This document shows positions 1,075 to 59,783 of a DNA stretch of 64,000 nt, piece by piece. The first letter of the stretch is position 1, and each line of letters opens with the position of its first letter. Below the pieces are notes generated by a model. The model did no database searches. It had not been told where the DNA came from and saw only the letters and a program-made list of their open reading frames with translations. The translations under genes and the position numbers were made by a program. Origin of the DNA: Streptomyces sp. PR69 (GTDB taxonomy: Bacteria > Actinomycetota > Actinomycetes > Streptomycetales > Streptomycetaceae); contig NZ_JAOWCB010000001.1 in assembly GCF_026420845.1 (NCBI RefSeq), positions 1 to 64,000 on the forward strand, in the 5' to 3' direction.

Positions 1075-1161
1075 CGCGCGAAGGGTAGCCGGACGCCTCC
1101 GACGGTAAATTGCGCATGACGCACATTCACCGGCATAACGTGTGAACCGGAAGCGGACGGC

Positions 1162-2608: not shown

Positions 2609-2658
2609 GAAACGCGATCATATGGGGCATCACGTGTCATGACGGTCCGCCTGATCCG

Positions 2659-3777: not shown

Positions 3778-4086
3778 TCGCCGAACAGTACCGGGCCCAC
3801 CCGCTCTTGGGGGTGTTGCCCCCAGCCCCCTTTCCCGCTTTGGGTGCGGGGGCTTCGGCCCTCCACGGCCCTGCGGCGCTGCGCGCTGCGGGCGTCTCCC
3901 GGGCGTGCCCGGTCTCCGCGGGCCGCGGGCCCTTTCCCGCCCACCCGCCCTCACCGCCGCGGGGCTGCGCCCCGCACCCCTGCGGCGAGGGGGCGACCGC
4001 GAGCCGCTCACGCCGGGCTTCGGCGTCGCGGCGGGTGCCGCTGTCGGGACGCTCGCCGCGGGGCTGCGCCCCGCACCCCTGCGGCG
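3673..4086. repeat. 67-bp cobT fragment duplicated upstream, flanked by 33-bp direct repeats
   Basis: Bases 3673-3739, inside cobT, are repeated without mismatch at 3989-4055 in the intergenic region. The second copy sits between two identical 33-bp segments, 3955-3987 and 4054-4086 (the latter overlapping it by two bases), so the pattern is repeat-fragment-repeat with a 99-bp period. The identity and coordinates are read directly from the sequence. The mechanism (template switching, slippage or gene conversion) is inference. Confidence 0.9.
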
Positions 4087-39557: not shown

Positions 39558-39700
39558 TCGAACCTTCGCGCGGTTGATCGCCCATCCGGGGTGACAGCGA
39601 AGGAACCGCCGAGTCCGTGCACTTCAGCCCTTTCCCCCGAGGGTGTGAGGCCGGAAGCCGGGGCCTGGCCCCCACGCCCGGCAGGCGGCTTATGGAAGAA
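39558..39700 (+). ncRNA. Probable ydaO-type (c-di-AMP) riboswitch leader
   Basis: The leader has GCGGTTGATCGCCC (39570-39583), GGGGTGACAGCG, GGAACCGCCGAGTCCGTG and GAGGGTGTGAGGCCGGAAGC. GCGGTT and AACCGC can pair, and GCCGAGTCCGT resembles the conserved ydaO core. In Streptomyces such leaders precede rpfA and NlpC/P60 hydrolases and respond to c-di-AMP. Assignment rests on partial motif matching from memory. Confidence 0.65.
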
Positions 39701-39713
39701 GGAGCTCGCCTTC

Positions 39714-40763
39714 GTGGCGTCCCACCGTCGTCCCAAGCAGCCAAGCCGCGCTCGTGTGACCGTGCTCACCGCGACCGCCGCGGCGGCCGTGGCCCTGACT
39801 TCCCAGTCCGCCCAGGCCGACCCCAAGCCGACCAAGGAAGAGGTCAAGGCCAAGGTCGACAAGCTCTACCACGAGGCGGAGAAGGCCACCGAGGAGTACA
39901 ACGGGGCCAAGGAGCAGCAGGACAAGCTGCAGAAGCAGGTCGACACCATCCAGGACCAGGTGGCGCGCGGCCAGGAAGAGGTCAACGAGCTGCGTGACAA
40001 GCTCGGTTCGGTGGCCAGCGCCCAGTACCGTTCGGGCGGAATCGACCCGTCCGTCCAGCTTTTCCTCTCTTCCGACCCGGACACCTACCTCGACAAGGCG
40101 TCCGCCGTGGACCAGTTCGGCGCGCGTCAGGCAGAGGTCCTGGAGGACATCCAGCTCAAGCAGCGCGCCCTTGCGCAGCAGCGCGCTGAGGCCGCCGAGA
40201 AGCTCACCGACCTCGAAGACGTCCGCAAGAAGCTCGGCGAGAAGAAGAAGAGCTACCAGGGCAAGCTCGCCGAGGCGCGCAAGCTGCTCAACACGCTGAC
40301 CGCCGAAGAGCGCGAGAAGATGCGCCAGGAGGAGCAGAAGCGCGCCCAGGAGGCCGAGAAGCGCGTCGCCCGCTCCACGGGTGACCGCGTCGACCTCGGC
40401 AACGAGGTCCCGGCCTCGCAGCGGGGCGCTGCCGCCCTCAGTGCCGCCGCGACCCAGATCGGCAAGCCGTATGTCTCCGGTGCGGAAGGCCCCAACTCCT
40501 ACGACTGCTCGGGTCTGACCCAGTGGGCGTACCGCCAGGCGGGCGTGAGCATCACCCGCACCACCTACACCCAGCAGAACGACGGCACCAAGATCGGTCG
40601 CAGCCAGCTCAAGCCGGGTGACCTGGTCTTCTTCAACGGCCTGTCGCACGTCGGCCTGTACGCGGGCAACAACACCATCCTGCACTCCCCGAAGCCGGGG
40701 GCCTATGTCCGCTATGAGTCGATGGACTACATGGGCACGTTCCAGTTCGGCGTGCGCATCTGA
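39714..40763 (+). CDS. Secreted NlpC/P60 peptidoglycan endopeptidase with coiled coil
   Basis: The 349-aa exported hydrolase cuts peptide stems in the wall. It has a signal peptide to about residue 35 (SQSAQA), a long coiled-coil region (40-215) that probably gates activity, and an NlpC/P60 domain with Cys265 (YDCSGLTQWAY), His312 (SHVGLYAG) and His324. GTG at 39714 has AAGAAGGAG nine bases upstream. A probable c-di-AMP riboswitch in the leader links it to osmotic or wall stress. A paralogue follows. Confidence 0.92.
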   Translation: MASHRRPKQPSRARVTVLTATAAAAVALTSQSAQADPKPTKEEVKAKVDKLYHEAEKATEEYNGAKEQQDKLQKQVDTIQDQVARGQEEVNELRDKLGSVASAQYRSGGIDPSVQLFLSSDPDTYLDKASAVDQFGARQAEVLEDIQLKQRALAQQRAEAAEKLTDLEDVRKKLGEKKKSYQGKLAEARKLLNTLTAEEREKMRQEEQKRAQEAEKRVARSTGDRVDLGNEVPASQRGAAALSAAATQIGKPYVSGAEGPNSYDCSGLTQWAYRQAGVSITRTTYTQQNDGTKIGRSQLKPGDLVFFNGLSHVGLYAGNNTILHSPKPGAYVRYESMDYMGTFQFGVRI

Positions 40764-40837
40764 GCAGCCCCGGCTGAACGGCCCCGGCCGGAGAGAGGGC
40801 ACACGCTGCCCTTCGGGTGAATTCCGGCATCCGACGC

Positions 40838-40883
40838 TGACGCCCCGCCCCGCCGGTGACCTGTGGTCTCCGGCGGGGCGTCA
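40838..40883 (+). terminator. Terminator between the two hydrolase genes
   Basis: TGACGCCCCGCC near 40838 pairs with GGCGGGGCGTCA ending at 40883, with an imperfect inner stem. Confidence 0.75.
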
Positions 40884-40905
40884 CTGTTCGTGCCCCGGAC
40901 GGCCG

Positions 40906-40935
40906 TTGGTCCTCATGTGATCGTCCGGCTACTGT
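40906..40935 (+). promoter_or_regulatory. Candidate promoter of the second hydrolase gene
   Basis: TTGGTC (40906-40911) and TACTGT (40930-40935) are 18 bases apart. The leader to the start at 41005 is too short to hold the riboswitch seen upstream of the first hydrolase gene. Confidence 0.5.
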
Positions 40936-41004
40936 CGGCCGCGCAACATCCCTCGTTTTTCCCGTACATCTCGGTGTACGCGCATGAGGAAGGGAGCGCG
41001 GCAC

Positions 41005-42048
41005 GTGGCGTCCCATCGCAGGCCCTCGCAGCCGGGTTTCACCCACGGCGCCCGGGTCACCGTCCTGTCCGCCGCCGCGGCCACCGCGGCCGCGGCCCTC
41101 GGCGCCGCTCCGCCGGCGAGCGCCGACCCGCACGAGACGGCCGAGGGGGCTCGGGCCGCGGTCGACCGCCTCTACGAGGAGGCCGAGAAGGCCACCGAGC
41201 AGTTCAACAAGGCCGAAGAGCGCGTGGAGCGGCTGCGCGAGCGGGTGGCGCAGGCACAGGACCGCGTGGCACGCGGCCAGGAGGCCGTCAACCGTATGCG
41301 GGCGGCGCTGGGTTCGCTGGCCGGCGCGCAGTACCGGTCCGGGGGCATGGACCCCTCACTCGCCCTGCTGCTGTCCGAGGACCCGGACGGCTATCTCGAC
41401 AAGGCCGTCACACTGGACCGGATCAGCGAGCGGCAGGCGACGGCGCTGAGCGATCTGCGTGAGGCCCAGCGCAGGATCGGCCAGGAGCGGGCGGAAGCCG
41501 GGCGTGACCTCGCGGAGCTGGAGCAGGGCCGCAAGGCGGTCGCCCGGCACAAGCGCCTCGTCGAGGGCAAACTCGCCGAGGCGCAGCGGCTGCTGAACGC
41601 GCTGACGGCGCGGGAGCGCGCCGCGTACGACGAGGAGCGGGCCTCCCGCTCCGGCCGCGGTGAGTCCCTGCCGGAGATGACGCCCGGTCTCGGGCCCGCC
41701 TCCGCGCGCGCCGCCGCGGCCGCCGCCGCGGCACGCAGCGCGGTCGGCCGGCCCTATGTGTGGGGGGCCAACGGGCCCTCCGGCTTCGACTGCTCCGGAC
41801 TGATGCAGTGGGCGTACGCCCAGGCAGGGGTCGGTCTGCCGAGGACCTCGCAGGCGCAGCGGTACGCGGGCCGGCAGGTGCCGCTGTCGCAGGCGCGGCC
41901 GGGGGATCTGGTGACGTACCGCAGCGACGCCAGCCATGTGGGCATGTACATGGGCAACGGTCAGGTGGTGCACGCGCCGTATCCGGGCGCGTCCGTGCGG
42001 TACGACCCTGTGGGCATGATGCCCATCGCCTCGGTCACCCGGGTCTGA
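41005..42048 (+). CDS. Secreted NlpC/P60 peptidoglycan endopeptidase, paralogue
   Basis: The 347-aa product matches the preceding hydrolase in plan: start VASHRRPSQP, signal peptide, coiled coil (45-215), and catalytic domain with Cys263 (FDCSGLMQWAYAQ) and SHVGMYMGNG with its His. GTG at 41005 is chosen by analogy with the first copy and because AGGAAGGGAG lies eight bases upstream. The pair arose by tandem duplication. It is followed 15 bp later by the lipoprotein gene and may form an operon with it. Confidence 0.92.
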   Translation: MASHRRPSQPGFTHGARVTVLSAAAATAAAALGAAPPASADPHETAEGARAAVDRLYEEAEKATEQFNKAEERVERLRERVAQAQDRVARGQEAVNRMRAALGSLAGAQYRSGGMDPSLALLLSEDPDGYLDKAVTLDRISERQATALSDLREAQRRIGQERAEAGRDLAELEQGRKAVARHKRLVEGKLAEAQRLLNALTARERAAYDEERASRSGRGESLPEMTPGLGPASARAAAAAAAARSAVGRPYVWGANGPSGFDCSGLMQWAYAQAGVGLPRTSQAQRYAGRQVPLSQARPGDLVTYRSDASHVGMYMGNGQVVHAPYPGASVRYDPVGMMPIASVTRV

Positions 42049-44971: not shown

Positions 44972-46114
44972 ATGCACAAGACCCTGATCGTGACCAACGA
45001 CTTCCCGCCCCGCCCCGGCGGCATCCAGGCGTTTCTGCACAATATGGCGCTGCGGCTGGACCCGGGGCAGCTTGTGGTCTACGCCTCCACCTGGAAGCGG
45101 ACCCGCGAGGGCGCCGAGGCGACCGCCGCCTTCGACGCGGAGCAGCCGTTCACCGTCGTACGGGACCGAACGACCATGCTGCTGCCGACGCCGCGCGTGA
45201 CCCGGCGGGCGGTGCAGCTGCTGCGTGAGCACGGATGCGAGTCCGTGTGGTTCGGGGCGGCCGCCCCGCTGGGGCTGATGGCCCCGGCGCTGCGTGCCGC
45301 GGGCGCGCGGCGGATCGTGGCCACCACACATGGCCACGAGGCGGGCTGGGCGCAGCTTCCGGCGTCCCGGCAGCTGTTGCGGCGGATCGGCGAGACCACG
45401 GACACGATCACCTATCTGGGTGAGTACACCCGTTCCCGGATCGCCGCCGCCCTCACCCCTGAGGCGGCCTCCCGCATGGTGCAGTTGCCGCCCGGAGTCG
45501 ATGAGAAGACCTTCCACCCCGGCTCGGGGGGCGACGCGGTGCGCGAGCGGCTCGGGCTCGCGGACCGGCCCGTGGTGGTGTGCGTGTCGCGGCTGGTGCC
45601 GCGCAAGGGCCAGGACACGCTGATCCGCGCGATGCCGGCGATCCTGGCGGAGATCCCGGACGCCGTGCTGCTGATCGTGGGCGGCGGCCCGTATGAGAAG
45701 GAGCTGCGGCGGCTGGCGGGGGAGACCGGGGTGGCCGGGGCGGTGCGGTTCACCGGCGCGGTGCCGTGGGAGGAGCTGCCCGCCCACTACGGCGCGGGCG
45801 ACGTGTTCGCGATGCCGTGCCGCACGCGCAGACGGGGCCTCGATGTGGAGGGCCTCGGCATCGTCTATCTGGAGGCGTCCGCCACCGGCCTGCCGGTCGT
45901 CGCGGGCGACTCGGGCGGTGCGCCGGACGCCGTGCTCGACGGCGAGACGGGCTGGGTGGTCCGCGGCGGCGCGCCCGAGGAGGCGGCTGAGCGGATCCTC
46001 AAGCTGCTGGACGACCCGGAGCTGCGGCGCGCCATGGGCGAGCGGGGCCGTGCCTGGGTCGAGGAGAGGTGGCGCTGGGATCTGCTGGCCGAGAAGCTCC
46101 GTACGCTCCTGTAG
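44972..46114 (+). CDS. GT4 glycosyltransferase, PimB'-like mannosyltransferase
   Basis: The 380-aa cytoplasmic enzyme has two Rossmann domains with GGIQAFLHNMALRL near the N-terminus, VSRLVPRKGQDTLIRAMP as the nucleotide-sugar loop and EGLGIVYLEASATGLPVVAG as the E-x7-E donor site. It resembles PimB', which adds the second mannose to phosphatidylinositol mannoside. TACTGT (44958-44963) ends eight bases before the ATG and no ribosome site is visible; the message may be leaderless. Confidence 0.87.
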   Translation: MHKTLIVTNDFPPRPGGIQAFLHNMALRLDPGQLVVYASTWKRTREGAEATAAFDAEQPFTVVRDRTTMLLPTPRVTRRAVQLLREHGCESVWFGAAAPLGLMAPALRAAGARRIVATTHGHEAGWAQLPASRQLLRRIGETTDTITYLGEYTRSRIAAALTPEAASRMVQLPPGVDEKTFHPGSGGDAVRERLGLADRPVVVCVSRLVPRKGQDTLIRAMPAILAEIPDAVLLIVGGGPYEKELRRLAGETGVAGAVRFTGAVPWEELPAHYGAGDVFAMPCRTRRRGLDVEGLGIVYLEASATGLPVVAGDSGGAPDAVLDGETGWVVRGGAPEEAAERILKLLDDPELRRAMGERGRAWVEERWRWDLLAEKLRTLL

Positions 46115-47915: not shown

Positions 47916-49712
47916 TCAGCCGCGGTAGATCGACTCGATCTCGTCCGCGAAGTCCTTCGCCACCACATTGCGCTTGAGCTTCAGCGACGGCGTGATGTGA
48001 CCGGCCTCCTCGGTGAACTGAGACGGCAGAACACGGAACTTCCGCACCGACTCCGCCTTGGAGACGGCCGCGTTGCCGTCGTCCACCGCCTTCTGGACCT
48101 CCGCCAGCAGCTCCGGGTCCTCGCGCAGCGAAGCGGCCGTCGCCCCCTCGGGCTTGCCGTGCTCCGCCGCCCAGCGGCCCAGGAACTCCTCGTCCAGGGT
48201 GATCAGCGCGCCCACGAAGGGACGTCCGTCGCCCACCACCATGCACTCCGCGACCAGCGCATGCCCGCGGATGCGGTCCTCGATCACCGCGGGGGCGACG
48301 TTCTTGCCGCCCGCGGTGACCAGGATCTCCTTCTTCCGGCCCGTGATCGTGAGATAGCCGTCCTCGTCGAGCGTGCCGATGTCGCCCGTGTGGAACCAGC
48401 CGTCGGCCAGCGCCTCCGCCGTCGCCGGCTCATTGTTCCAGTACCCCTGGAAGAGCTGATCGCCGTGCAGCAGCACCTCGCCGTCGTCCGCGATCCGCAC
48501 GGTGGAGCCCGGCAGCGGCTGACCGACCGTGCCGATCTTCTGCCGGTCCCAGGGGTTGAACGCCGTCGCCGCGCAGGACTCGGTCAGTCCATAGCCCTCC
48601 AGCACCGTGAAGCCGATGCCGCGGAAGAAGTGGCCGAGCCGCTCGCCCAGCGGCGCGCCGCCGGAGATGGCGTACTCGCCGCGCCCGCCCAGCACCGCCC
48701 GGAGCTTGCGGTAGACGAGCAGGTCGAAGACCTTGTGCTTGAGCCGCAGCGCTGTCGAAGGGCCGGACGGGGCGGACAGCGCCCGGCTGTAGGCGATGGC
48801 GGTGTGCGCGGCCTTGTCGAAGATCGCGCCCTTGCCGTCCGCCTGCGCCTTGGCCCGCGCCCCGTTGTAGACCTTCTCGAAGACGCGCGGCACGCCGAGA
48901 ATCAGCGTCGGCTTGAAGGAGGCCAGTTCATCGGTGAGCTGCTTGATGTCCGGTACGCAGCCGAGCTTGATCGGCGCCATCACGGCCGCGACCTCGACCA
49001 GCCGGCCGAAGACATGCGCGGCGGGCAGGAAGAGCAGCACGGAGCACTCGCCCGTGCGGAACAGCGGTTTGAGCCGCTCCACCGCGTTGCCGCACTCCGC
49101 GAAGAAGCTGCGGTGGGTGAGCACACAGCCCTTGGGACGGCCGGTGGTGCCCGAGGTGTAGACGATGGTCGCCGGGTCGTCCGCCTTGGCGCTCGCGCTG
49201 CGCTCGTCCACCGTGGCGTCGTCGATCTCCGCTCCGGCCGCGACCAGTTCACCGACCCCGTCACGCTCGATCTGCCAGACGTTGCACAGCTCCGGCAGCC
49301 GGTCGCGTACGGAGTCCACCGCGGCGGCGTGGGCGTCGCTCTCCACGAGCACGGCGACCGCGCCCGAGTCCCCGAGAATCCACTGGAGCTGCTCGGCGGA
49401 GCTGGTCTCGTACACCGGGACGGTCACCGCTCCGGCGCTCCAGATCGCGAAGTCCAGCAGCACCCACTCGTACCGGGTGCGCGACATCAGCCCCACCCGG
49501 TCGCCCGGCCGGACGCCCGAGGCGATCAGGCCCTTGGCCGCGGCCCGCACCTCGGCGAGGAACTGCCGGGCGGTCACATCCGTCCAGACGCCCGCCACCT
49601 TGCGGCCCATCACCGCGACATCCGGATGCTGAGCGGCATTGCGGCGGATCAGGTCGGTCAGGTTGCCGTCCGTGGGGACCTCGTACAGGGCCGGAAGGCT
49701 GAACTCGCGCAA
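47916..49712 (-). CDS. Long-chain fatty acid--CoA ligase
   Basis: The 598-aa enzyme activates fatty acids as acyl-CoA through an acyl-adenylate. Family motifs are IVYTSGTTGRPKGCVLTH (P-loop), LEGYGLTESCAATAFNP (adenylation core), WFHTGDIGTLDEDGYLTITGRKKE and AGGKNVAP. It starts with TTG (LREFSLPALYEVP) with GAGGAG about ten bases upstream; this start matches the N-terminus I remember for close homologues. Sequence does not show chain-length preference. Confidence 0.93.
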   Translation of the reverse strand: MREFSLPALYEVPTDGNLTDLIRRNAAQHPDVAVMGRKVAGVWTDVTARQFLAEVRAAAKGLIASGVRPGDRVGLMSRTRYEWVLLDFAIWSAGAVTVPVYETSSAEQLQWILGDSGAVAVLVESDAHAAAVDSVRDRLPELCNVWQIERDGVGELVAAGAEIDDATVDERSASAKADDPATIVYTSGTTGRPKGCVLTHRSFFAECGNAVERLKPLFRTGECSVLLFLPAAHVFGRLVEVAAVMAPIKLGCVPDIKQLTDELASFKPTLILGVPRVFEKVYNGARAKAQADGKGAIFDKAAHTAIAYSRALSAPSGPSTALRLKHKVFDLLVYRKLRAVLGGRGEYAISGGAPLGERLGHFFRGIGFTVLEGYGLTESCAATAFNPWDRQKIGTVGQPLPGSTVRIADDGEVLLHGDQLFQGYWNNEPATAEALADGWFHTGDIGTLDEDGYLTITGRKKEILVTAGGKNVAPAVIEDRIRGHALVAECMVVGDGRPFVGALITLDEEFLGRWAAEHGKPEGATAASLREDPELLAEVQKAVDDGNAAVSKAESVRKFRVLPSQFTEEAGHITPSLKLKRNVVAKDFADEIESIYRG

Positions 49713-49980: not shown

Positions 49981-49986
49981 TAGGGT
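49981..49986 (+). promoter_or_regulatory. -10 box of a likely leaderless message
   Basis: TAGGGT ends seven bases before the ATG at 49994, placing the transcription start at or next to the start codon. No clear -35 is visible. A similar spacing is seen before the genes at 11101, 26225 and 44972. Confidence 0.55.
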
Positions 49987-49993
49987 GATCGCC

Positions 49994-50770
49994 ATGCGAG
50001 GCATGCGAGTCAACGTGGTCAGCGACGTGCACGGCAATGCAAAGGATCTCGCCACCGCGGGGGACGGCGCCGACGCCCTGATCTGCCTGGGAGACCTGGT
50101 GCTCTTCCTCGACTACGCCGACCACACACGAGGCATCTTCCCCGACCTCTTCGGCGTGCGGAACGCCGATCTGATCGTGGAACTGCGCACCGCCCGCCGC
50201 TTCGACGAGGCCCGTGACCTCGCCCGCAGACTCTGGGCGGAGCTCGGCGCCGACCGGGAACGCGCCATCGAGGCGGCCGTGCGCACCCAGTACGCCGAGA
50301 TGTTCGCGGCCTTCCCCACCCCGACGTACGCCACCTACGGCAATGTCGACATCCCCGCGCTCTGGCCGGAATACGCCAGGCCCGGCACCACCGTCCTCGA
50401 CGGCGAACGCACCGAGATCGGCGGCCTCGTCTTCGGCTTCGTCGGCGGCGGGCTGCAGTCCCCGATGCGCACCCCGTACGAGATCCCCGACGAGGAGTAC
50501 GCGGCCAAGGTCGAGGCCCTCGGCGAGGTCGACGTCCTCTGCTCGCACATCCCTCCGGACGTCCCCGAACTGACCTATGACACCGTGCCGCGCCGCTTCG
50601 AACGCGGCAGCCGCGCCCTGCTGGAGGCCATCCACCGCACCCGGCCGCGCTACGCCCTCTTCGGCCATGTCCATCAGCCGCTGGCCCCGCGGATGCGCAT
50701 CGGCGCCACCGAGTGTGTCAACGTCGGCCACTTCGCCGCCACCGGCAAGCCCTGGACGCTCACCTGGTGA
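49994..50770 (+). CDS. Metallophosphoesterase family protein
   Basis: The 258-aa protein has the calcineurin-like motifs: VVSDVHGN (D-x-H), LICLGDLVLF (GD), TYATYGNVD where GNH(D/E) is usual, LCSHIPP and YALFGHVHQPL. The His of the GNHD motif is replaced by Val, so one catalytic residue may be changed. The substrate is unknown. ATG at 49994 (MRGMRVN) is preferred because of the TAGGGT box; GTG 49985 overlaps that box. Confidence 0.85.
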   Translation: MRGMRVNVVSDVHGNAKDLATAGDGADALICLGDLVLFLDYADHTRGIFPDLFGVRNADLIVELRTARRFDEARDLARRLWAELGADRERAIEAAVRTQYAEMFAAFPTPTYATYGNVDIPALWPEYARPGTTVLDGERTEIGGLVFGFVGGGLQSPMRTPYEIPDEEYAAKVEALGEVDVLCSHIPPDVPELTYDTVPRRFERGSRALLEAIHRTRPRYALFGHVHQPLAPRMRIGATECVNVGHFAATGKPWTLTW

Positions 50771-50938: not shown

Positions 50939-51388
50939 ATGGCGGAACACACCAGCTCGAGCATCGAGATCGCGGCGGCGCCGGCCGACGTCATGGCGGT
51001 GATCTCCGACTTCGCCCGCTACCCGGAGTGGACCGGAGAGGTGAAGCAGGCCGAGGTGCTCGCCGTCGACGACCAGGGCCGCGCCGACCAGGTACGGCTG
51101 GTCCTCGACGCGGGCGCGATCAAGGACGACCACACCCTCGCCTACACCTGGCACAGCCCGAACCAGGTCAGCTGGACGCTGGTCAAGTCCCAGATGCTGC
51201 GCGCCATCGACGGCTCCTACACCCTCGCCCCGATCGGCGCGGGCGACCGCACCGAGGTCACCTACCAGCTCACCGTGGATGTCAAGATCCCCATGCTGGG
51301 CATGATCAAGCGCAAGGCCGAGAAGGTCATCATCGACCGCGCGCTGGACGGGCTGAAGCAGCGCGTCGAGAGCGGGCCGCACACCTGA
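50939..51388 (+). CDS. SRPBCC (START-like) family protein
   Basis: The 149-aa protein MAEHTSSSIEIAAAPADVMAVISDFARYPEWTGEVKQAEVL follows the polyketide-cyclase/START fold, which makes a lipid- or ligand-binding cavity. GAGGAG precedes the ATG. No catalytic residues can be named. Its stop codon overlaps the start of the ArsA-like gene (TGATG), so the two proteins are co-translated and may act together. Confidence 0.9.
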   Translation: MAEHTSSSIEIAAAPADVMAVISDFARYPEWTGEVKQAEVLAVDDQGRADQVRLVLDAGAIKDDHTLAYTWHSPNQVSWTLVKSQMLRAIDGSYTLAPIGAGDRTEVTYQLTVDVKIPMLGMIKRKAEKVIIDRALDGLKQRVESGPHT

Positions 51389-52566
51389 TGCGCACGGTCC
51401 TCGTCACCGGCCTCGGCGGCGCGGGCCGCACCGCCGTCGCCGCGGCCACGGCCCTCGCCGCCGCCCGCCGCGGGGAGCGCACGCTCTTCCTGAGCGCCGA
51501 CCCCGGCGAGGTGCTCGGCGCGCCCATACGCGGGGGCGTCACAACGCCCGAACCGGTCGCCGACGGACTGTGGGCCGCCCGCGTCGAGCCCGCCGCCGAC
51601 TTCCGCGCCGAGTTCCTCTCCCTCCAGGAGCGCTGCGCCGCCGCCCTCGACCTGCTCGGCGCCGCCCGGCTTGAGGGCGAGGAGCTGACCGAACTGCCCG
51701 GCAGCGAGGAGTTCGCCCTGCTCCGCGCCCTGGCCCGCGCAGCGCGCGGCGACTGGGACCGGATCGTCCTCGACCTCCCCCCGCTGCGCAGGGCCATCGC
51801 CCTGCTCGCCCTGCCCGAGCAGCTCCGGCGCTATCTGCGCAGGCTGCTGCCGCCGGAACGGCAGGCCGCCCGCGCCCTGCGCCCCGTACTCGCGCAGCTG
51901 GCCGGGGTCCCGATGCCCGCGCAGCAGCTCTACGAGACCGCCGGGCGCTGGGACGCGGAGCTGGCCGCCGTCCAGGCGGTCGTCGAGCACCCGGACACCG
52001 CCGTGCGGCTGGTCGCCGAGCCGGGGCCGGCCGCCGCGGACGCCCTGCGCACCGCCCGTCTCGGCCTCGCCCTCCAGGGGCCCGCCCCCCAGATGGTGGT
52101 GGCCAACCGGGTGCTGCCCGCCGAGACGCCCGACACCTGGCTCGCCGGACTCATCGCACAGCAGCACAAGCATCTGGCGGAGCTGCGCGCCGAGTACGGC
52201 ACGGTGTGCGAGCTGCCGCACCTCGGCCGCGACCCGCGCGGACTCGACGATCTCGCCCTGCTCGCCCCGTCCGAGGCCGCGACGCCTGCGGCGGCGCCCG
52301 CGCCCGCGGCAGGCTGGACCATCGAGGACCGGCGTGCGGAGGAAGGCTTCCTCATCTGGCGTCTTCCGCTGCCCGGAGCGGTCAAGGAGGAGCTCACGCT
52401 GGTCCGCCGCGGCGACGAACTCGTGATCACGGCCGGACCGTTCCGCAGGATCTTCGCCCTGGAGCCCGCGCTGCGCCGCTGCACGGTCGCGGGCGCGGGC
52501 CTGACCGGCGGTGAGCTGACGGTGCGGTTCGCCCCGGACCCCGGTCTGTGGCCGCGCGGGGCGTGA
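51388..52566 (+). CDS. ArsA/GET3-like protein with degenerate P-loop
   Basis: The 392-aa protein has the ArsA/GET3 fold outline, with a P-loop TGLGGAGRTAVAAATAL at residues 7-23, a deoxy-lid like LPGSEEFALLRALARAA, WDRIVLDLPPLRRAI and VVANRVLPAE. The C-terminal 75 residues resemble the Hsp20-like ArsA tail (GFLIWRLPLPGAVKEELTLVRRGDELVI). The consensus GKGGVGKT reads G-L-G-G-A-G-R-T: both the signature Lys (here Leu9) and the Walker A Lys (here Arg14) are gone, so hydrolysis may be lost or changed. It is coupled to the SRPBCC gene. Confidence 0.85.
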   Translation: MRTVLVTGLGGAGRTAVAAATALAAARRGERTLFLSADPGEVLGAPIRGGVTTPEPVADGLWAARVEPAADFRAEFLSLQERCAAALDLLGAARLEGEELTELPGSEEFALLRALARAARGDWDRIVLDLPPLRRAIALLALPEQLRRYLRRLLPPERQAARALRPVLAQLAGVPMPAQQLYETAGRWDAELAAVQAVVEHPDTAVRLVAEPGPAAADALRTARLGLALQGPAPQMVVANRVLPAETPDTWLAGLIAQQHKHLAELRAEYGTVCELPHLGRDPRGLDDLALLAPSEAATPAAAPAPAAGWTIEDRRAEEGFLIWRLPLPGAVKEELTLVRRGDELVITAGPFRRIFALEPALRRCTVAGAGLTGGELTVRFAPDPGLWPRGA

Positions 52567-52639
52567 ACGCCCATCGCCCGTTCGGGTAACGTCGAGCGTA
52601 CGCAGGGCCGGACACACGGACACGGACACGGAGTACGCC

Positions 52640-53110
52640 ATGAGCGATGCGACCGAGCGCCCCGACGCCTGGGTCGACGCCGACGCCGACGCCGACGCCT
52701 GGGCCGATGCGTGCGCCGAGGACCTGAAGGCGGAGCGGGCGCGCCGGCGCGAGCAGTACGGGGAGCAGCCCGGCACGGCCTCCGAGGAGTTCAGAAGGCT
52801 GCTGGACGCCGTCGCCGACAAGGTCGCCTCGATCCAGGGCTCCCTGCCCGGGACGGCCGCGCAGAACGCGGTACAGCAGTTCGTCCGGCAGGCCAAGGCG
52901 GCCGTCGAGCCGGTCATCGAGCGCAACCCCCAGGTCTTCGACCACCTCGCGGCCGCAGGCGGTGAGCTGCTCGCCGCCTATCGATCCGCCGTCGAGGGCC
53001 ATGAGCGACGCTGGACGCAGCGGCCGAGCGACACCGCGGAGGCCGGGGACCCGCGCGACGGACGCTCTGACGAGGGCCCAGGCCCCAGTGAGCGCATCGA
53101 CCTGGACTGA
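52640..53110 (+). CDS. DUF5304 protein
   Basis: The 156-aa protein MSDATERPDAWVDADADADAWADACAEDLKAE has an Asp/Ala repeat at residues 10-25, then helices with RLLDAVADKVASIQGSLPGTAAQNAVQQFVRQAKAAVEPVIERNPQVFDHLAAAG. It fits DUF5304, found in actinobacteria near glkA. No function is known. It lies 73 bp after the ArsA-like gene and 65 bp before glkA. Confidence 0.8.
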   Translation: MSDATERPDAWVDADADADAWADACAEDLKAERARRREQYGEQPGTASEEFRRLLDAVADKVASIQGSLPGTAAQNAVQQFVRQAKAAVEPVIERNPQVFDHLAAAGGELLAAYRSAVEGHERRWTQRPSDTAEAGDPRDGRSDEGPGPSERIDLD

Positions 53111-53175: not shown

Positions 53176-54117
53176 ATGGGACTCACCATCGGCGTCGACA
53201 TCGGCGGCACGAAGATCGCGGCGGGCGTGGTCGACGAAGAGGGCACCATTCTCGAGACGCACAAGGTGCCCACCCCGTCGACCTCCGAGGGCATCGTCGA
53301 CGCCATTTGCTCCGCCGTGGCCTCGGCCGGGGAGGGGCGCGACATCGAGGCCGTCGGCATCGGCGCGGCCGGATACGTCGATGACAAGCGTGCCACCGTG
53401 CTCTTCGCGCCGAACATCGACTGGCGGCACGAGCCGCTCAAGGACAAGGTCGAGCAGCGCGTCGGTCTGCCGGTGGTCGTCGAGAACGACGCGAACGCGG
53501 CCGCATGGGGCGAGTACCGCTTCGGCGCCGGCCAGGGCCATGACGACGTCATCTGCATCACCCTCGGCACCGGGCTCGGCGGCGGCATCATCATCGGCAA
53601 CAAGCTGCGGCGCGGGCGCTTCGGCGTGGCCGCGGAGTTCGGCCACATCCGGGTGGTGCCGGACGGACTGCTGTGCGGCTGCGGCAGCCAGGGCTGCTGG
53701 GAGCAGTACGCCTCCGGCCGCGCCCTCGTCCGCTACGCGCGCCAGCGTGCCAACGCCACGCCCGAGAACGCGCGGATCCTGCTGGGGCTCGGCGACGGCA
53801 CCCCCCAGGGCATCGAGGGCAAACACGTCAGCGCCGCGGCCCGGCAGGGCGACCCGGTCGCCATCGACTCCTTCCGCGAACTGGCCCGCTGGGCCGGCGC
53901 GGGCCTCGCGGACCTGGCGTCCCTGTTCGACCCCTCGGCGTTCATCGTCGGCGGCGGCGTCTCCGACGAGGGCGAGCTGGTCCTCGACCCGATCCGCAAG
54001 TCCTTCCGCCGCTGGCTGATCGGCGGCCAGTGGCGTCCCCACGCCCAGGTCCTCGCCGCGCAACTCGGCGGCAAGGCGGGCCTGGTGGGCGCGGCGGACC
54101 TGGCCCGCCACGGCTGA
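53176..54117 (+). CDS. glkA: Glucokinase (ROK family)
   Basis: GlkA phosphorylates glucose with ATP and is needed for carbon catabolite control in Streptomyces. The 313-aa product has LTIGVDIGGTKIAAGVVD (ATP phosphate loop), VVENDANAAAWGEY with the catalytic Asp, and AEFGHIRVVPDGLLCGCGSQGCWEQYASG, the ROK zinc-binding motif. GAGGG precedes the ATG. It is followed by a 256-bp inverted-repeat element. Confidence 0.96.
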   Translation: MGLTIGVDIGGTKIAAGVVDEEGTILETHKVPTPSTSEGIVDAICSAVASAGEGRDIEAVGIGAAGYVDDKRATVLFAPNIDWRHEPLKDKVEQRVGLPVVVENDANAAAWGEYRFGAGQGHDDVICITLGTGLGGGIIIGNKLRRGRFGVAAEFGHIRVVPDGLLCGCGSQGCWEQYASGRALVRYARQRANATPENARILLGLGDGTPQGIEGKHVSAAARQGDPVAIDSFRELARWAGAGLADLASLFDPSAFIVGGGVSDEGELVLDPIRKSFRRWLIGGQWRPHAQVLAAQLGGKAGLVGAADLARHG

Positions 54118-55334: not shown

Positions 55335-55961
55335 CTACACCACCGCGCCGCGCCCCGGATCGTCGTCCTCGTCGTCCCCCGGCCGCATCCGTGCCACCAG
55401 GGCGACGAAACCGCCCAGGAAGCCGCCCACGCACAGGGTGGTGAGCCACCAGGTCATCTCCCACCGCAACAGCACCGCGACCAGCATCAGCACCGGTCCG
55501 CCGATCACCGCGAGCCAGGCGAACTTCGCCGTGACGTCGGCCTCCGGCAGCGGCGGGGGCTCCGGCGGCACGAAATGGCCCTCGTCGTCCTCGCCGGGAT
55601 CGTCGTCGGAGGGCTCGGAGACCCGGTAGTCGCGCGGGCCGCCGCCCACTCCGGGCGCAAAGGTCACCGAGCTGCCCAGCGAGGGCCCTCCGCCCGATCC
55701 CGCGCCGCCGTCGCCCGCGTCCCCGCGGGAGCCCGGTCCGCTGTCCCGCGGGCCGTCGTTGAACTCGCCCTCCAGCGCGGCCAGGTCCTCCACGGACTTG
55801 AAGGGCTTCGCCCCCGGCGGGTCCGCGGGCTCTTCGCCGTACCCCGCGACGATGGCGGCCCAGGCGGCCTCCTCGTCGACGGGCCGCGGCTCCCGTTCCC
55901 GGTCCCTGTCCCGGTCCCTGTCCCGGTCTCTGTCCCGGTCCGCGTCGTGCTGCTCAGCCAC
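55335..55961 (-). CDS. Membrane protein with Asp-Arg repeat
   Basis: The 208-aa protein starts VAEQHDADRDRDRDRDRDR, a stretch of alternating Asp and Arg coded by a 6/12-bp DNA repeat (55893-55946). It has an acidic disordered region (PSDDDPGEDDEGHF) and two transmembrane segments (about 150-168 and 172-190) near the C-terminus. GTG at 55961 overlaps the stop of the esterase gene by eight bases (GTGGCTGA), so it is coupled to it. The function is unknown. Confidence 0.8.
   Translation of the reverse strand: MAEQHDADRDRDRDRDRDRDREREPRPVDEEAAWAAIVAGYGEEPADPPGAKPFKSVEDLAALEGEFNDGPRDSGPGSRGDAGDGGAGSGGGPSLGSSVTFAPGVGGGPRDYRVSEPSDDDPGEDDEGHFVPPEPPPLPEADVTAKFAWLAVIGGPVLMLVAVLLRWEMTWWLTTLCVGGFLGGFVALVARMRPGDDEDDDPGRGAVV
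55893..55946. repeat. Hexanucleotide/12-bp repeat encoding Asp-Arg
   Basis: TCCCGGTCCCTG units in tandem, slightly diverged, encode alternating Arg and Asp in the membrane protein. Variation in copy number would keep the frame. Confidence 0.85.
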
Positions 55962-56733
55962 CGGTGGTGCTTCCTTCCTTCCCCGCACTGGGGGCGAGCC
56001 GGCCGATGAACGCGTAGCTCTCCTCGAATATCAGCTCCGCATCGTGGTCCAACGTCGCCACGTGGTAGCTCTGTTCCAGCAGGATCTCCTTGACGTCCCG
56101 CGAGGAGACACGGCTGAGTATGCGCGCGGAGTCGACGGACGGCACCACATGGTCCTGCGGGCTGTGCAGCAGCACCAGCGGCTGGGTGACCTGCGGCAGC
56201 TCGCCGTCCACCAGCTTCAGGAACTGCCGCAGCGAGTGCGCGGCGTGCAGCGGCACCCGGTCGTAGCCGAGCTCCTCCTCGCCGTCCTTGGCGATGTCGC
56301 TGGTCAGCCCCTTGGTTGTGCGCACCAGGTGCCTGGCGACCGGCAGCGCGTACGCGGACAGGCCGTGGACCTTGTTCGCCGGGTTCACCAGCACGATGCC
56401 GCTGATCGCCTCGCCGTGCTTGGCGGCGAGCCGCAGCGTGAGCGCCCCGCCCATGGACAGGCCGAAGACAAACACCTGGCTGCACCGCTCCCGCAGGGCC
56501 CGCAGCTCGCGGTCCACCTCCGCGTACCAGTCCTGCCAGCCGGTGAGCTGCATGTCCTGCCAGCGTGTGCCGTGCCCCGGCAGCAGCGGCAGCGACACCG
56601 TCAGCCCGCGCTCCGCGAGATAACCGGCCCAGGGGCGCAGCGACTGCGGGGATCCGGTGAATCCGTGACAGAGGAGGACGCCGACCTCTCCGCCCTCGTG
56701 GCGGAACGGCTCAGCTCCGGGAAGGACCGGCAC
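55954..56733 (-). CDS. Alpha/beta-hydrolase, carboxylesterase type
   Basis: The 259-aa product has GVLLCHGFTGSPQSLRPWA (oxyanion loop), FVFGLSMGGALTLRLA with nucleophile Ser93, the acidic residue in LLHSPQDHVVPS and His in LEQSYHVATLDHD. It resembles Est30-type esterases or monoacylglycerol lipases. GTG at 56733 (VPVLPGAEPF) is chosen over ATG 56751 because AGGAG lies seven bases before it. The PlsC-type gene is divergent from it. Confidence 0.9.
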   Translation of the reverse strand: MPVLPGAEPFRHEGGEVGVLLCHGFTGSPQSLRPWAGYLAERGLTVSLPLLPGHGTRWQDMQLTGWQDWYAEVDRELRALRERCSQVFVFGLSMGGALTLRLAAKHGEAISGIVLVNPANKVHGLSAYALPVARHLVRTTKGLTSDIAKDGEEELGYDRVPLHAAHSLRQFLKLVDGELPQVTQPLVLLHSPQDHVVPSVDSARILSRVSSRDVKEILLEQSYHVATLDHDAELIFEESYAFIGRLAPSAGKEGSTTGG

Positions 56734-56951
56734 CGGGGGTCTCCTGTTCATGAGGATCGAATCCCGCGGACGGAATTCTGCGGACGGAATACTTCTGACG
56801 AAATGCCTGGCTCAAAGGGTGTACCTCACCGTACGCGACCGGACTGACACCGACCAGGGCCGTCCGCGCTCCCGGTGGGCGGGGCCGCCGCGGGGAAGGC
56901 GCGCCCGCCACGGGTTAAGGTCTGTTCGAGAGCACACAGGAGGCACACGAG

Positions 56952-57761
56952 TTGATCTACGGCGCAATGAAGTTCTCCCTCGGCAGCTCACTGAAGCTTG
57001 CCTTCCGGCCCTGGGTGGAGGGTCTGGAGAACGTACCCGCGGAGGGGCCGGCGATCCTCGCGAGCAACCACCTCTCCTTCTCGGACTCGTTCTTCCTGCC
57101 TGCCGTCCTGGACCGCAAGGTCACCTTTATCGCCAAGGCTGAGTACTTCACCACGCCCGGCGTCAAGGGCAGGCTCACCGCGGCCTTCTTCAAGGGCGTG
57201 GGCCAGCTCCCGGTGGACCGTTCCGGCGCGCGCGGCGCGGGTGAGGCGGCCATCAAGGCGGGTGTCGAGGTGATCGAGGAGGGCGGCCTGTTCGGTATCT
57301 ACCCCGAGGGCACCCGCTCCCCGGACGGCCGCCTTTACCGGGGCAAGCCCGGCGGCCTCGCGCGCGTGGCGCTGGCCACGGGCGCGCCCGTCATCCCCGT
57401 CGCGATGATCGACACCGAGAAGATCCAGCCGCCGGGGAAGGTGCTGCCCAAGCTGATGCGGCCGGGCATCAGAATCGGCAAGCCGCTGGACTTCAGCCGC
57501 TACCGCGGCATGGAGGGCGACCGCTTCATCCTGCGCTCGGTGACCGACGAGGTCATGTACGAGATCATGAAGCTGTCCGGGCAGGAGTACGTCGACATCT
57601 ACGCCACGGCGGCCAAGCGCCAGATCGCGGAGGCCGAGAAGGCCGCGAAGGCACAGGCCAAGGAGCAGGCGAAGGCCGAGTCCGCGACGCACGGGAAGAC
57701 GCAGGAGAAGAAGGGCCGGCGACGCAAGGGCGACGGGCAGCAGGACAGGACCGCGGCCTAG
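56952..57761 (+). CDS. 1-acyl-sn-glycerol-3-phosphate acyltransferase (PlsC family)
   Basis: The 269-aa enzyme probably adds an acyl chain to lysophosphatidate at the membrane. LASNHLSFSDSFFLP has the NHx4D motif (His40, Asp45), FGIYPEGTRSPDG the EGTR motif, and VALATGAPVIPVAMID the third block. The C-terminal 50 residues are Lys/Ala/Glu-rich. It begins with TTG with a full AGGAGG eight bases before it; an ATG lies five codons in. The MacRS-like genes follow. Confidence 0.92.
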   Translation: MIYGAMKFSLGSSLKLAFRPWVEGLENVPAEGPAILASNHLSFSDSFFLPAVLDRKVTFIAKAEYFTTPGVKGRLTAAFFKGVGQLPVDRSGARGAGEAAIKAGVEVIEEGGLFGIYPEGTRSPDGRLYRGKPGGLARVALATGAPVIPVAMIDTEKIQPPGKVLPKLMRPGIRIGKPLDFSRYRGMEGDRFILRSVTDEVMYEIMKLSGQEYVDIYATAAKRQIAEAEKAAKAQAKEQAKAESATHGKTQEKKGRRRKGDGQQDRTAA

Positions 57762-57810
57762 GCCGTGTCGCCGAGGTTCTGTCCGTACAGTGCGTCCCGG
57801 GGTGGGGAAG

Positions 57811-59046
57811 ATGGCCAAGCGCGAGCGCGTCGTGCGGATGTCGGTCGAACAGCCGCTGTGGCGGGCGCTCACCGCGTACCGCGTGCTGACCATGGTCTAC
57901 GCGGTGCTGCTGGCCTTCTTCACCCGGGAGAAGTTCGAGCGGCCCCTCGTGGCCGCCGCCTTCCTGGCCTTCCTGGCCGTGTGGACGCTGGCCACGCTGC
58001 CCAAGGTGGCGGGTGCCGCGCACTGCACCAAGCGCTTCCTGGCCGCCGACCTGACCGTCGCCGTCACCGGCCTTCTGCTGACCCCGCTGGCCGACGCGCA
58101 GGCGCAGCAGATCGACGGGCCCACGCTGCCGACCATCTGGACCGCGGGTTCGGTGCTCGCCTACGCGATCAAGGGCGGCTGGCGCTGGGCGGCCGGCGCG
58201 TCGTCCGTCGTCGCCGTCGCCAATGTCGTCGAGCGGGGCGAGCCGAGCAGCGACACGTACCACAACGTCCTGCTGGTGTGGGTGGCGTCCATCGCCATCG
58301 GATACGTCGTCGAGGTCGCCCGGGCCTCCGAGCGCACCCTCGCCCGCGCCCTGGAGATCGAGGCCGCGACCCGGGAGCGGGAGCGGCTCGCCCGGGACAT
58401 CCATGACAGCGTGCTGCAGGTGCTGGCGATGGTGCAGCGGCGCGGCACGGCCCTCGGCGGCGAGGCGGCCGAGCTGGGCCGGCTTGCGGGGGAACAGGAG
58501 ATCGCCCTGCGGACCCTGGTCGCCGGCGGCATGGTGCCCCCGTCCCGGGTCTCGGAGGACGCCTCGCAGGGCGCGGTCGTGCGACTCGTCGAAGAGCCCG
58601 CAGAGCCCGGCCCGGAGCCCACGGAGACGTCTGGCCCATCGCCCTGCGATCTGCGGACCCTGCTGGGCCCGTACGCGGGCACGCGGGTGACGATCTCGGA
58701 ACCGGGCGCGCCGGTGCTGCTGCCCGCGCCCGCCGCACGGGAGTTGACGGCGGCTGTCAGTGCCGCCCTGGACAATGTCCGCAGACACGCGGGGGAGCAG
58801 GCGCGCGCCTGGATTCTGGTCGAGGACTGGCCGGACGAGGTGGTCGTGACCGTGCGGGACGACGGCCCCGGCATCCCGGAAGGGCGGCTGGAGCAGGCCG
58901 AAGGCGAGGGGCGGATGGGCGTCGCCCTGTCCATCCGCGGGCGGCTGCGGGATCTGGGCGGCAGCGCCGAGGTGATCTCGGCGCCGGGGCAGGGCACGGA
59001 AGTTGAATTGAAGGTTCCACGGGGGAAGGCGGGACAGGACGGATGA
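57811..59046 (+). CDS. macS: Sensor histidine kinase, MacS-like
   Basis: The 411-aa kinase has four or five transmembrane segments in residues 22-170, then the HisKA_3 site ERLARDIHDSVLQVL with His198 and an ATPase domain (LTAAVSAALDNVRRHAG, VTVRDDGPGIPEG, GRMGVALSIRGRLRDLGG). Position next to plsC and pfkA fits MacS of S. coelicolor, which controls membrane protein genes and development; naming is from synteny in memory. GTG 57790 overlaps a TACAGT box (57786-57791), so ATG 57811 is used. Confidence 0.85.
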   Translation: MAKRERVVRMSVEQPLWRALTAYRVLTMVYAVLLAFFTREKFERPLVAAAFLAFLAVWTLATLPKVAGAAHCTKRFLAADLTVAVTGLLLTPLADAQAQQIDGPTLPTIWTAGSVLAYAIKGGWRWAAGASSVVAVANVVERGEPSSDTYHNVLLVWVASIAIGYVVEVARASERTLARALEIEAATRERERLARDIHDSVLQVLAMVQRRGTALGGEAAELGRLAGEQEIALRTLVAGGMVPPSRVSEDASQGAVVRLVEEPAEPGPEPTETSGPSPCDLRTLLGPYAGTRVTISEPGAPVLLPAPAARELTAAVSAALDNVRRHAGEQARAWILVEDWPDEVVVTVRDDGPGIPEGRLEQAEGEGRMGVALSIRGRLRDLGGSAEVISAPGQGTEVELKVPRGKAGQDG

Positions 59047-59783
59047 CGGACCGGCGACAGCGTTCGGACGAGCAGGAGACCGGGCAGGAGACGGGGCAGC
59101 AGACCGGGCAGGAGACCGGGCGGGCGATCAGGGTCATGGTGGTCGACGACCACCCCATGTGGCGTGACGCGGTCGCCCGCGATCTCGAAGCCGCGGGCTT
59201 CGAGGTGGTCGCCACGGCAGGCGACGGCGAGCAGGCGGTGCGCCGCGCGCGTGCGGCGAGCCCGGACGTCCTCGTCCTCGATCTCAATCTGCCCGCCAAG
59301 CCGGGCGTCCAGGTGTGCAAGGAGCTCGTCGGCTCCCTGGAAGGGCTGCGCGTGCTGGTGCTCTCCGCGAGCGGTGAGCACGCTGACGTGCTGGAGGCGG
59401 TCAAGTCCGGAGCCACCGGCTATCTGCTCAAGTCGGCCAGCGCCGGGGAGCTGACCGACGCGGTGCGCCGCACGGCCGCCGGGGACCCGGTCTTCACACC
59501 GGGCCTCGCGGGCCTGGTCCTGGGCGAGTACCGCAGGCTGGCCGCCGAGCCCGCCCCCGCCCCAGACGCCGGGGAGCCCCATGCGCCCCGGCTCACCGAG
59601 CGGGAGACGGAGGTGCTGCGGCTGGTCGCCAAGGGGCTGTCGTACAAGCAGATAGCCGAGCGTCTGGTCATCTCCCACCGCACCGTGCAGAACCACGTCC
59701 AGAACACCCTCGGCAAGCTCCAGCTGCACAACAGGGTCGAGCTGGTGCGGTACGCGATAGAGCGCGGCCTCGACGACGCCTGA
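59043..59783 (+). CDS. macR: NarL-type response regulator, MacR-like
   Basis: The 246-aa regulator has an N-terminal stretch of four ETGQ-like units (12-27, coded by 12-bp repeats at about 59074-59121), a receiver domain with Asp35-Asp36 and phospho-acceptor Asp80 (VLVLDLNLPAKPG), and a C-terminal LuxR-type domain (LTERETEVLRLVAKGLSYKQIAERLVISHRTVQNHV). It overlaps the kinase gene by ATGA. In S. coelicolor MacR is reported to bind a TGAGTAC/GTACTCA palindrome; I see no such site upstream here. Confidence 0.87.
   Translation: MTDRRQRSDEQETGQETGQQTGQETGRAIRVMVVDDHPMWRDAVARDLEAAGFEVVATAGDGEQAVRRARAASPDVLVLDLNLPAKPGVQVCKELVGSLEGLRVLVLSASGEHADVLEAVKSGATGYLLKSASAGELTDAVRRTAAGDPVFTPGLAGLVLGEYRRLAAEPAPAPDAGEPHAPRLTERETEVLRLVAKGLSYKQIAERLVISHRTVQNHVQNTLGKLQLHNRVELVRYAIERGLDDA

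Follow-up and report, generated by a model that had tools for sequence, protein, structure and literature searches.

Get3 and ArsA proteins are thought to require an ATP cycle for the capture and release of their clients, which raises the question of what such a protein does at a locus where both lysines of its P-loop are missing. This locus lies in the window, the whole stretch of 64,000 nucleotides analysed here (positions 1 to 64,000 of contig NZ_JAOWCB010000001.1 of Streptomyces sp. PR69, source genome 6.57 Mb), where the genes for an SRPBCC protein, an ArsA-like protein, a DUF5304 protein, and a ROK glucokinase form a head-to-tail run. A preliminary description had proposed that the ArsA-like protein lacks both P-loop lysines, keeps an Hsp20-like tail, and is translationally coupled to the SRPBCC protein, as part of a lipid- or tail-anchored-protein chaperone module that does not use ATP in the usual way. 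Here, we describe a genus-wide lineage that has discarded the lysines and the switch motifs while the fold, the client region, and the alpha-crystallin domain appear to stay under selection, so that a scaffold role without ATP becomes testable. The parts of the module in the window are as follows.

50939..51388, plus strand: SRPBCC/START-fold protein of 149 amino acids, first gene of the module (Pfam PF10604, Polyketide_cyc2, 3.2e-17)
51388..52566, plus strand: protein of 392 amino acids with an ArsA/Get3 fold and a C-terminal alpha-crystallin domain, without the P-loop lysines (Pfam)
51409..51432, plus strand: degenerate P-loop, residues 8-15, GLGGAGRT in place of the normal GKGGVGKT (sequence reading)
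51802..51909, plus strand: helical client-side segment, approximately residues 139-174, Arg-rich and unusually conserved in Streptomyces (pair identity)
52354..52530, plus strand: alpha-crystallin (Hsp20-like) domain, residues 323-381 (Pfam and model)
52640..53110, plus strand: DUF5304 protein of 156 amino acids, third gene, Cys motif lost (Pfam DUF5304, 2.2e-63)
53176..54117, plus strand: ROK-family glucokinase (glkA), conserved downstream neighbour (Pfam ROK, 1.6e-99)

The ArsA-like protein is recognized by the Pfam family ArsA_ATPase (2.4e-28, 99.7 bits against a cut-off of 24.3), and its C-terminus by ArsA_HSP20 (PF17886, 7e-15), in agreement with the tail that had been described. Leu9 and Arg14 occupy both lysine positions of GKGGVGKT, as first noted, and the loss extends across the genus. 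An orthologue is present in 98 of 101 Streptomyces genomes (in one case as a contig-end fragment only), and the three genomes without it (G017, G050, G079) include two that are less than 85% complete and two that are in more than 1000 contigs. Among 266 Streptomyces genomes searched, the P-loop was read in 97, and none of these proteins has a lysine at position 9 (Pro in 68, Leu in 8, Thr in 8, Ala in 6, others in 7) or at position 14 (Arg in 96, Val in 1). The 97 rows comprise loci returned by searches together with 38 of 39 regions fetched by hand, many of them picked for low identity or split matches; residues were counted in one row per genome, and rows gapped in the P-loop or with more than 120 gap columns (more than 60 in the intact group) were dropped. 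As far as these alignments reach, the loss of both lysines is fixed in Streptomyces. The translational coupling of the SRPBCC and ArsA-like genes is present in the window, where the two open reading frames overlap in TGATG, but was rejected as a conserved feature because this spacing (-1) occurs in only 4 of 95 Streptomyces loci, with any overlap in 5 and a gap of more than 60 nucleotides in 50 (start codons guessed by position).

The loss extends to the other catalytic motifs. In 89 nonredundant rows with an intact loop (residue numbering of L067), Asp38, His41, and Asp45 of switch I are each present in all 89 and Thr135 of switch II in 88, whereas the Streptomyces proteins (n = 97) have Asp38 in 77 (Glu in 14), His41 in none, Asp45 in 6, and Thr135 in 11. 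Another 18 lysine-lacking rows have neither His41 nor Asp45, and Thr135 in a single case. The Walker-B Asp is kept in 89/89 intact, 96/97 Streptomyces, and 18/18 other lysine-lacking rows. The distribution of conservation differs as well when pairs of proteins are matched at overall identity (0.606 / 0.607; 1133 Streptomyces pairs, 894 for switch I, and 817 intact pairs). Pair identity in Streptomyces is lower than in intact relatives at switch I (0.318 vs 0.898) and switch II (0.620 vs 0.905), but higher in the helical segment that follows switch II (0.858 vs 0.611) and in the alpha-crystallin domain (0.699 vs 0.545). Judged by these pairs, the Streptomyces proteins have come to be constrained less at the switches and more on their client side. 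In Frankiaceae pairs (overall identity 0.61), the alpha-crystallin domain is also raised (0.663) but the helical segment shows no rise (0.588), and the rise on the helical side is therefore particular to Streptomyces.

Whether the missing lysines are the rule among homologues, as the preliminary description had asked, is answered differently inside and outside the genus. The motif GKGGVGK[TS] was read in syntenic orthologues of many Actinomycetes and Acidimicrobiia, and also in homologues of Archaeoglobaceae, Aminicenantes, and others; universal lysine loss in the family is thus refuted by the intact syntenic orthologues. The preliminary description had named normal-motif homologues in the same operon as the observation that would speak against it, and such homologues are common in other Actinobacteria. 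Because they occupy the same operon, the lysine-less state of Streptomyces is, from the sequences compared, a derived one and not the nature of the family. The 80 named loci behind this survey are the best 80 among the matches listed from a P-loop-pattern scan, which favours intact loops, and some duplicate the contigs of other loci (e.g., L199 / L260); outside Streptomyces, the P-loop states were thus not sampled at random and their frequencies are not representative.

Lysine-less loops recur in several other groups. They read GKGG[AGV]GTT in Frankiaceae (group f20, in which locus L260 has the ArsA sequence of the Candidatus Frankia meridionalis locus L199), GKGGSGVT and GPGGAGTT in group f3 of the same order, and GPGGSG[VI]S and GAGGAGRT in two genera of group f6, a third f6 genus having GPGGAGKS; T forms are found in the P-loop of groups f50, f30, and f36. 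Both intact and lysine-less forms are found within each of the groups f6, f20, and f36. At L221 (group f6/g78) the loop is GPGGAGKST, with the first lysine gone and the second kept, a possible intermediate. A tree of the ArsA-like proteins, built from 83 rows after removal of the motif columns, needs no fewer than 4 changes at position 14 and 5 at position 9. A tree of the flanking SRPBCC and Glk genes, built on 51 of 70 rows with both neighbours, requires at least 5 changes and rejects a single lysine-less clade (log-likelihood 388 lower, p-AU 0.0007), which argues for repeated lysine loss, given inheritance in place. The remaining alternative is a spread of the ArsA-like gene alone by transfer. 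Independent-pairs sign tests yielded only three supported pairs, too few for significance.

The third gene has also changed. A small protein with a CxxCPxC motif is encoded between ArsA and Glk in 86/100 intact loci and in 19/19 Frankiaceae, but in 0/97 Streptomyces, 0/13 f3 loci, and 0/1 other f1 locus; the remaining lysine-less loci are divided (f30 1/1, f50 1/1, f6 1/4, f36 0/1; duplicates removed, and 9 loci excluded for their gap size). The Streptomyces DUF5304 protein is homologous to the CxxCPxC protein, with the Cys stretch replaced (hhalign profile comparison 97.9%, E 4.5e-13), and the Pfam DUF5304 model matches one CxxCPxC frame at 2.7e-4, under the cut-off. The cysteines may be metal ligands. 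Since the lysines and the Cys motif are both gone, two of the three proteins of the Streptomyces module have lost residues of a cofactor type. At L336-L339 the CxxCPxC protein is kept although the ArsA-like gene is gone, and L334 carries a CxCPxC variant.

The neighbourhood of the module is widely shared. DUF5304 next to the ArsA-like gene and glkA downstream had been described correctly for the window. Among the 80 named loci, 64 have the SRPBCC gene immediately upstream of the ArsA-like gene, and 60 of these also have Glk downstream; of the other 16, two are actinobacterial, 12 belong to other phyla, one is from an unassigned bacterium, and one is at a contig end. Genes for FadD, a metallophosphoesterase, an alpha/beta hydrolase, PlsC, a PimB'-type glycosyltransferase, and NlpC/P60 recur around the module in intact and lysine-less lineages alike. 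The window follows this syntenic actinobacterial arrangement of SRPBCC and ArsA with an alpha-crystallin domain, with SRPBCC upstream, Glk downstream, and FadD, PlsC, and PimB'-type genes around, and its recurrent neighbours are the following.

44972..46114, plus strand: glycosyltransferase, recurrent neighbour, presumably of the PimB' type by synteny (Pfam Glycos_transf_1, 7.9e-45)
47916..49712, minus strand: long-chain acyl-CoA synthetase, recurrent neighbour, which we take to be FadD15-like (Pfam AMP-binding, 1.3e-78)
49985..50770, plus strand: metallophosphoesterase, frequent neighbour (Pfam Metallophos, 6.1e-9)
55954..56751, minus strand: alpha/beta hydrolase (Hydrolase_4), frequent neighbour (Pfam)
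56952..57761, plus strand: PlsC-type acyltransferase, recurrent neighbour and counterpart of mycobacterial PlsM by synteny (Pfam Acyltransferase, 6.7e-24)

Two adjacent NlpC/P60 genes (Pfam) lie at the opposite end of the cluster, at 39591-42048 of the window, and NlpC at the cluster edge recurs in other actinobacterial loci. Downstream of plsC, at 57790-59783, are a histidine kinase and a response regulator, a pair also seen at this cluster in several Nocardioides loci. Group f6/g9 (L316), taken as Mycobacterium, has the order NlpC, GT, FadD, SRPBCC, ArsA, PlsC with an intact loop, and we take Rv2184c and Rv2185c to be the ArsA-like and SRPBCC genes of the mycobacterial cluster. The Streptomyces locus resembles the mycobacterial PimB'/PlsM cluster, where PlsM is needed for growth. 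According to PMC10593935, PlsM (Rv2182c, PlsC type) adjoins pimB' and further PIM genes, and mycobacteria in which PlsM is silenced stop phospholipid synthesis and growth.

The AlphaFold model of the ArsA-like protein (pLDDT 92.9, pTM 0.91) has the predicted SIMIBI/Get3 fold, with strands at 311-383 in the alpha-crystallin region. Foldseek and VIA-align give NosGet3d (8egk) as the best match (Z 29.7), aligned across 344 residues and reaching residue 384; other VIA-align matches are archaeal Get3 (3zq6, Z 28.0), 8elf (Z 26.9), and yeast Get3 (Z ~25), and beyond residue 298 the model is barely tested in the VIA-align list except via the Get3d rows. For the SRPBCC protein (pLDDT 92.3), the family profile PF10604 and a predicted helix-grip fold place it in the SRPBCC/START superfamily, and its best fold match is the START protein MSMEG_0129 (5z8o; TM ~0.90), which has the same fold at 26-27% identity and is not known to lie at such a locus.

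The explanation we favour, at about an even chance, is that the window protein is a (nearly) noncatalytic Get3d-like pseudo-ATPase that serves, without needing ATP, as a holdase, adaptor, or scaffold. The Streptomyces protein would be a form of an actinobacterial Get3d-like protein that has turned (nearly) noncatalytic, in which the helical client region would stay folded and, together with the alpha-crystallin domain, be retained for binding without ATP. It would act jointly with the START-fold SRPBCC carrier on a phospholipid, an acyl chain, or a hydrophobic client of the PimB'/FadD/PlsC pathway; contact with the SRPBCC protein and a lipid or hydrophobic cargo are what we infer from synteny and fold. 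A useful ATPase is likely absent from the Streptomyces protein, to judge by its residues. The unconventional lipid chaperone module of the preliminary description is in this respect partly borne out, by the loss of the other catalytic motifs and by the phospholipid cluster, but the state is a derived one and independence from ATP is likely only, given the retained Arg14, P-loop glycines, and Walker-B Asp. More tentatively, and short of an even chance, a conserved actinobacterial machine of the phospholipid locus, made up of a START-fold carrier, a Get3d-like ATPase with alpha-crystallin domain, and a small CxxCPxC protein, may have shed its ATPase repeatedly, and in Streptomyces also the Cys motif of the small protein, to become an energy-independent chaperone that only binds lipid or hydrophobic clients and in which selection moved to the client and alpha-crystallin surfaces. 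If true, this would be a natural, repeated experiment in which the Get3 fold proves able to work without ATP.

Several observations weigh against these proposals. Of the 83 rows in the tree of the ArsA-like proteins, 36 are without Lys14, and a single clade of them is not rejected (p-AU 0.526); this tree is even 3.95 log units better with these rows together, which may reflect long branches pulling them together; independent loss rests on the flanking-gene tree and the mixed states within f6, f20, and f36. The loss of the Cys motif is not tied to lysine loss everywhere, as the motif is kept in every Frankiaceae locus counted and missing from 14/100 intact loci. The SRPBCC gene often persists where the ArsA-like gene is absent, and the SRPBCC protein therefore does not need the ArsA-like protein. 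The TRC40/GET3/ArsA ATPase model TIGR00345 scores the window protein at 93.2 bits, below its cut-off of 135, which speaks for the pseudo-ATPase, and five relatives (L067, L128, L184, L199, L216) at 145-268 bits, but it is no clean test, as the Frankia form L199, without Lys14, passes at 157.8 bits. The P-loop itself stays conserved in Streptomyces (pair identity 0.865 vs 0.952 in intact relatives). The strongest counter-argument combines the slow activity of NosGet3d with the retention of the glycine loop, of Arg14 in 96/97, and of the Walker-B Asp; Asn240 (93/97) and Asp38 (or Glu, 91/97 in all) are also kept, and this set of conserved residues is a hint that some binding of phosphate or nucleotide is left.

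The leading rival is one that we consider unlikely: the Streptomyces protein would still bind nucleotide, hydrolysing it slowly or only binding it, with Arg14 replacing Lys14 as in NosGet3d, and binding rather than fast turnover would drive the cycle. According to PMC10248533, NosGet3d carries Arg instead of the P-loop Lys and Glu instead of the switch I Asp and still hydrolyses ATP with a kcat of 0.28 per min (1.10 per min for AtGet3d). Get3d, NosGet3d included, nevertheless keeps an intradimeric lysine that is absent from the Streptomyces proteins read, and these proteins have lost His41 entirely and mostly Asp45 and Thr135; moreover, the Thr or Val at position 14 in Frankiaceae and others cannot act like Arg.

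It is quite improbable that the gene is relaxed and dying, the ATPase being dispensable in these lineages and the protein heading for loss, although a graded series in one syntenic slot would fit such a course, from intact through lysine-less forms to an open frame between SRPBCC and Glk in group f36 (L331) that lacks the P-loop part and keeps the alpha-crystallin end, and finally to absence. In group f21, all 21 genomes have an SRPBCC match of 6e-57 or better but an ArsA profile match of only 6e-24 to 6e-22 at best, and in 5/5 loci read (L326-L330) SRPBCC is followed directly by Glk, the ArsA-like and third genes missing from an otherwise conserved cluster. At an SRPBCC identity of ~0.55, ArsA identity is 0.533 in intact pairs (482) vs 0.360 in mixed pairs (354) and 0.352 where both lack lysines (65). 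The near-universal presence of the gene in Streptomyces, the helical segment that is more conserved than in intact relatives, and a median dN/dS of 0.30 in close Streptomyces pairs (191 pairs; 0.215 for SRPBCC, 0.223 for Glk, 0.278 for DUF5304, by a simple method and with 191 to 4041 close pairs depending on the gene) all speak against decay. From the dN/dS and the lower ArsA identity at equal SRPBCC divergence, the gene is under selection yet faster-evolving.

A very improbable reading makes the protein the regulatory half of a heterodimer whose active site comes from an ArsA/Get3-like paralogue. In its favour, the same genome has a tandem pair of ArsA/Get3-like genes (C12:3654-5662; L002, L003) with the loops GAGGVGKT and GKGGTGKT, presumably of the BagA/BagB type, and mycobacterial Get3-like A and B were solved together (entry 6bs3). 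Against it, the two loci are on different contigs, and the intact orthologues in the same operon elsewhere imply that a partner was not needed ancestrally. That the lysines are missing through a wrong frame, a wrong start, or an assembly error has a negligible chance and was ruled out by the lysine-less loops of 97 Streptomyces genomes and the confidently predicted Get3-like fold, with nothing found in its favour.

The literature searched holds no report on the function of the ArsA-like gene, in the mycobacterial cluster or in Streptomyces; combined-term searches returned the Get3d paper, other Get3/ArsA papers (mostly eukaryotic), or unrelated ones. Where its mentions were examined, in partial texts, Rv2184c occurs only in lists, and no mention of SCO2128, the probable S. 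coelicolor orthologue by gene order, was found in the literature searched. SCO2129 and SCO2131 are mentioned, in the text portions available, as an ARO-CYC protein from the nucleoid proteome and as a long-chain fatty acid CoA ligase, respectively. By gene order, SCO2127 is probably the DUF5304 gene of S. coelicolor, and a paper on its deletion reportedly concerns the regulation of actinorhodin. For S. coelicolor, 73 putative tail-anchored proteins were listed in 2011, when their targeting machinery was unknown, and bacterial ArsA was said by the authors to be without the residues needed for tail-anchored targeting (PMC3087755, sections available). Tail-anchored clients of the Streptomyces ArsA-like protein are possible.

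Among known systems, Get3/TRC40 and ArsA share with the window protein the fold, the P-loop glycine scaffold, and the Walker-B Asp, but the window protein is without the lysines, its switch motifs are degenerate, and it has an additional alpha-crystallin domain. Get3d (NosGet3d 8egk/3igf and AtGet3d 8elf; PMC10248533) is closer, as it combines the nucleotide-binding fold with a helical client domain and a C-terminal alpha-crystallin domain and, in the sections available to us, is described with degenerate catalytic residues too. Those sections differ from our case in that Get3d conserves its intradimeric lysine, which 0/97 Streptomyces proteins have, retains a slow ATPase, and is tied to photosynthetic lineages; they contain no mention that we found of an SRPBCC gene or a phospholipid locus. 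They also report that the Arabidopsis member, AtGet3d, copurifies with molecules of ~750 Da consistent with phospholipid, although a primary lipid-binding role was considered unlikely by the authors. Membership in the Get3d equivalog was rejected, the window protein reaching 68.0 bits against the NCBIfam NosAFP cut-off of 325 (five relatives, 101-155). The alpha-crystallin domain is called unique to the Get3d clade in the same sections, but Pfam finds it also in actinobacterial proteins and in one Archaeoglobaceae protein (L184). Nine ArsA relatives with intact motifs align over most of the query including its C-terminal part (L184, L190, L172, L175, L176, L195, L198, L203, L205), from Archaeoglobaceae, Aminicenantes, Kryptonia, Dadabacteria, Poribacteria, and a Phaeodactylibacter. 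Since Pfam confirms the domain in L184, alone among the nine, it is not confined to the photosynthetic Get3d lineages. The intact actinobacterial orthologues (Nocardioides, Nonomuraea, and others; ~34-41% identity to the window protein) share the gene order of SRPBCC, ArsA with alpha-crystallin domain, small protein, and Glk, usually with FadD, PlsC, or PimB'-type genes, but differ in having both lysines, AHSLxD at switch I, CAPTxET at switch II, and usually CxxCPxC in the third protein. As orthologues from the same operon in other bacteria, they provide natural controls for the Streptomyces form.

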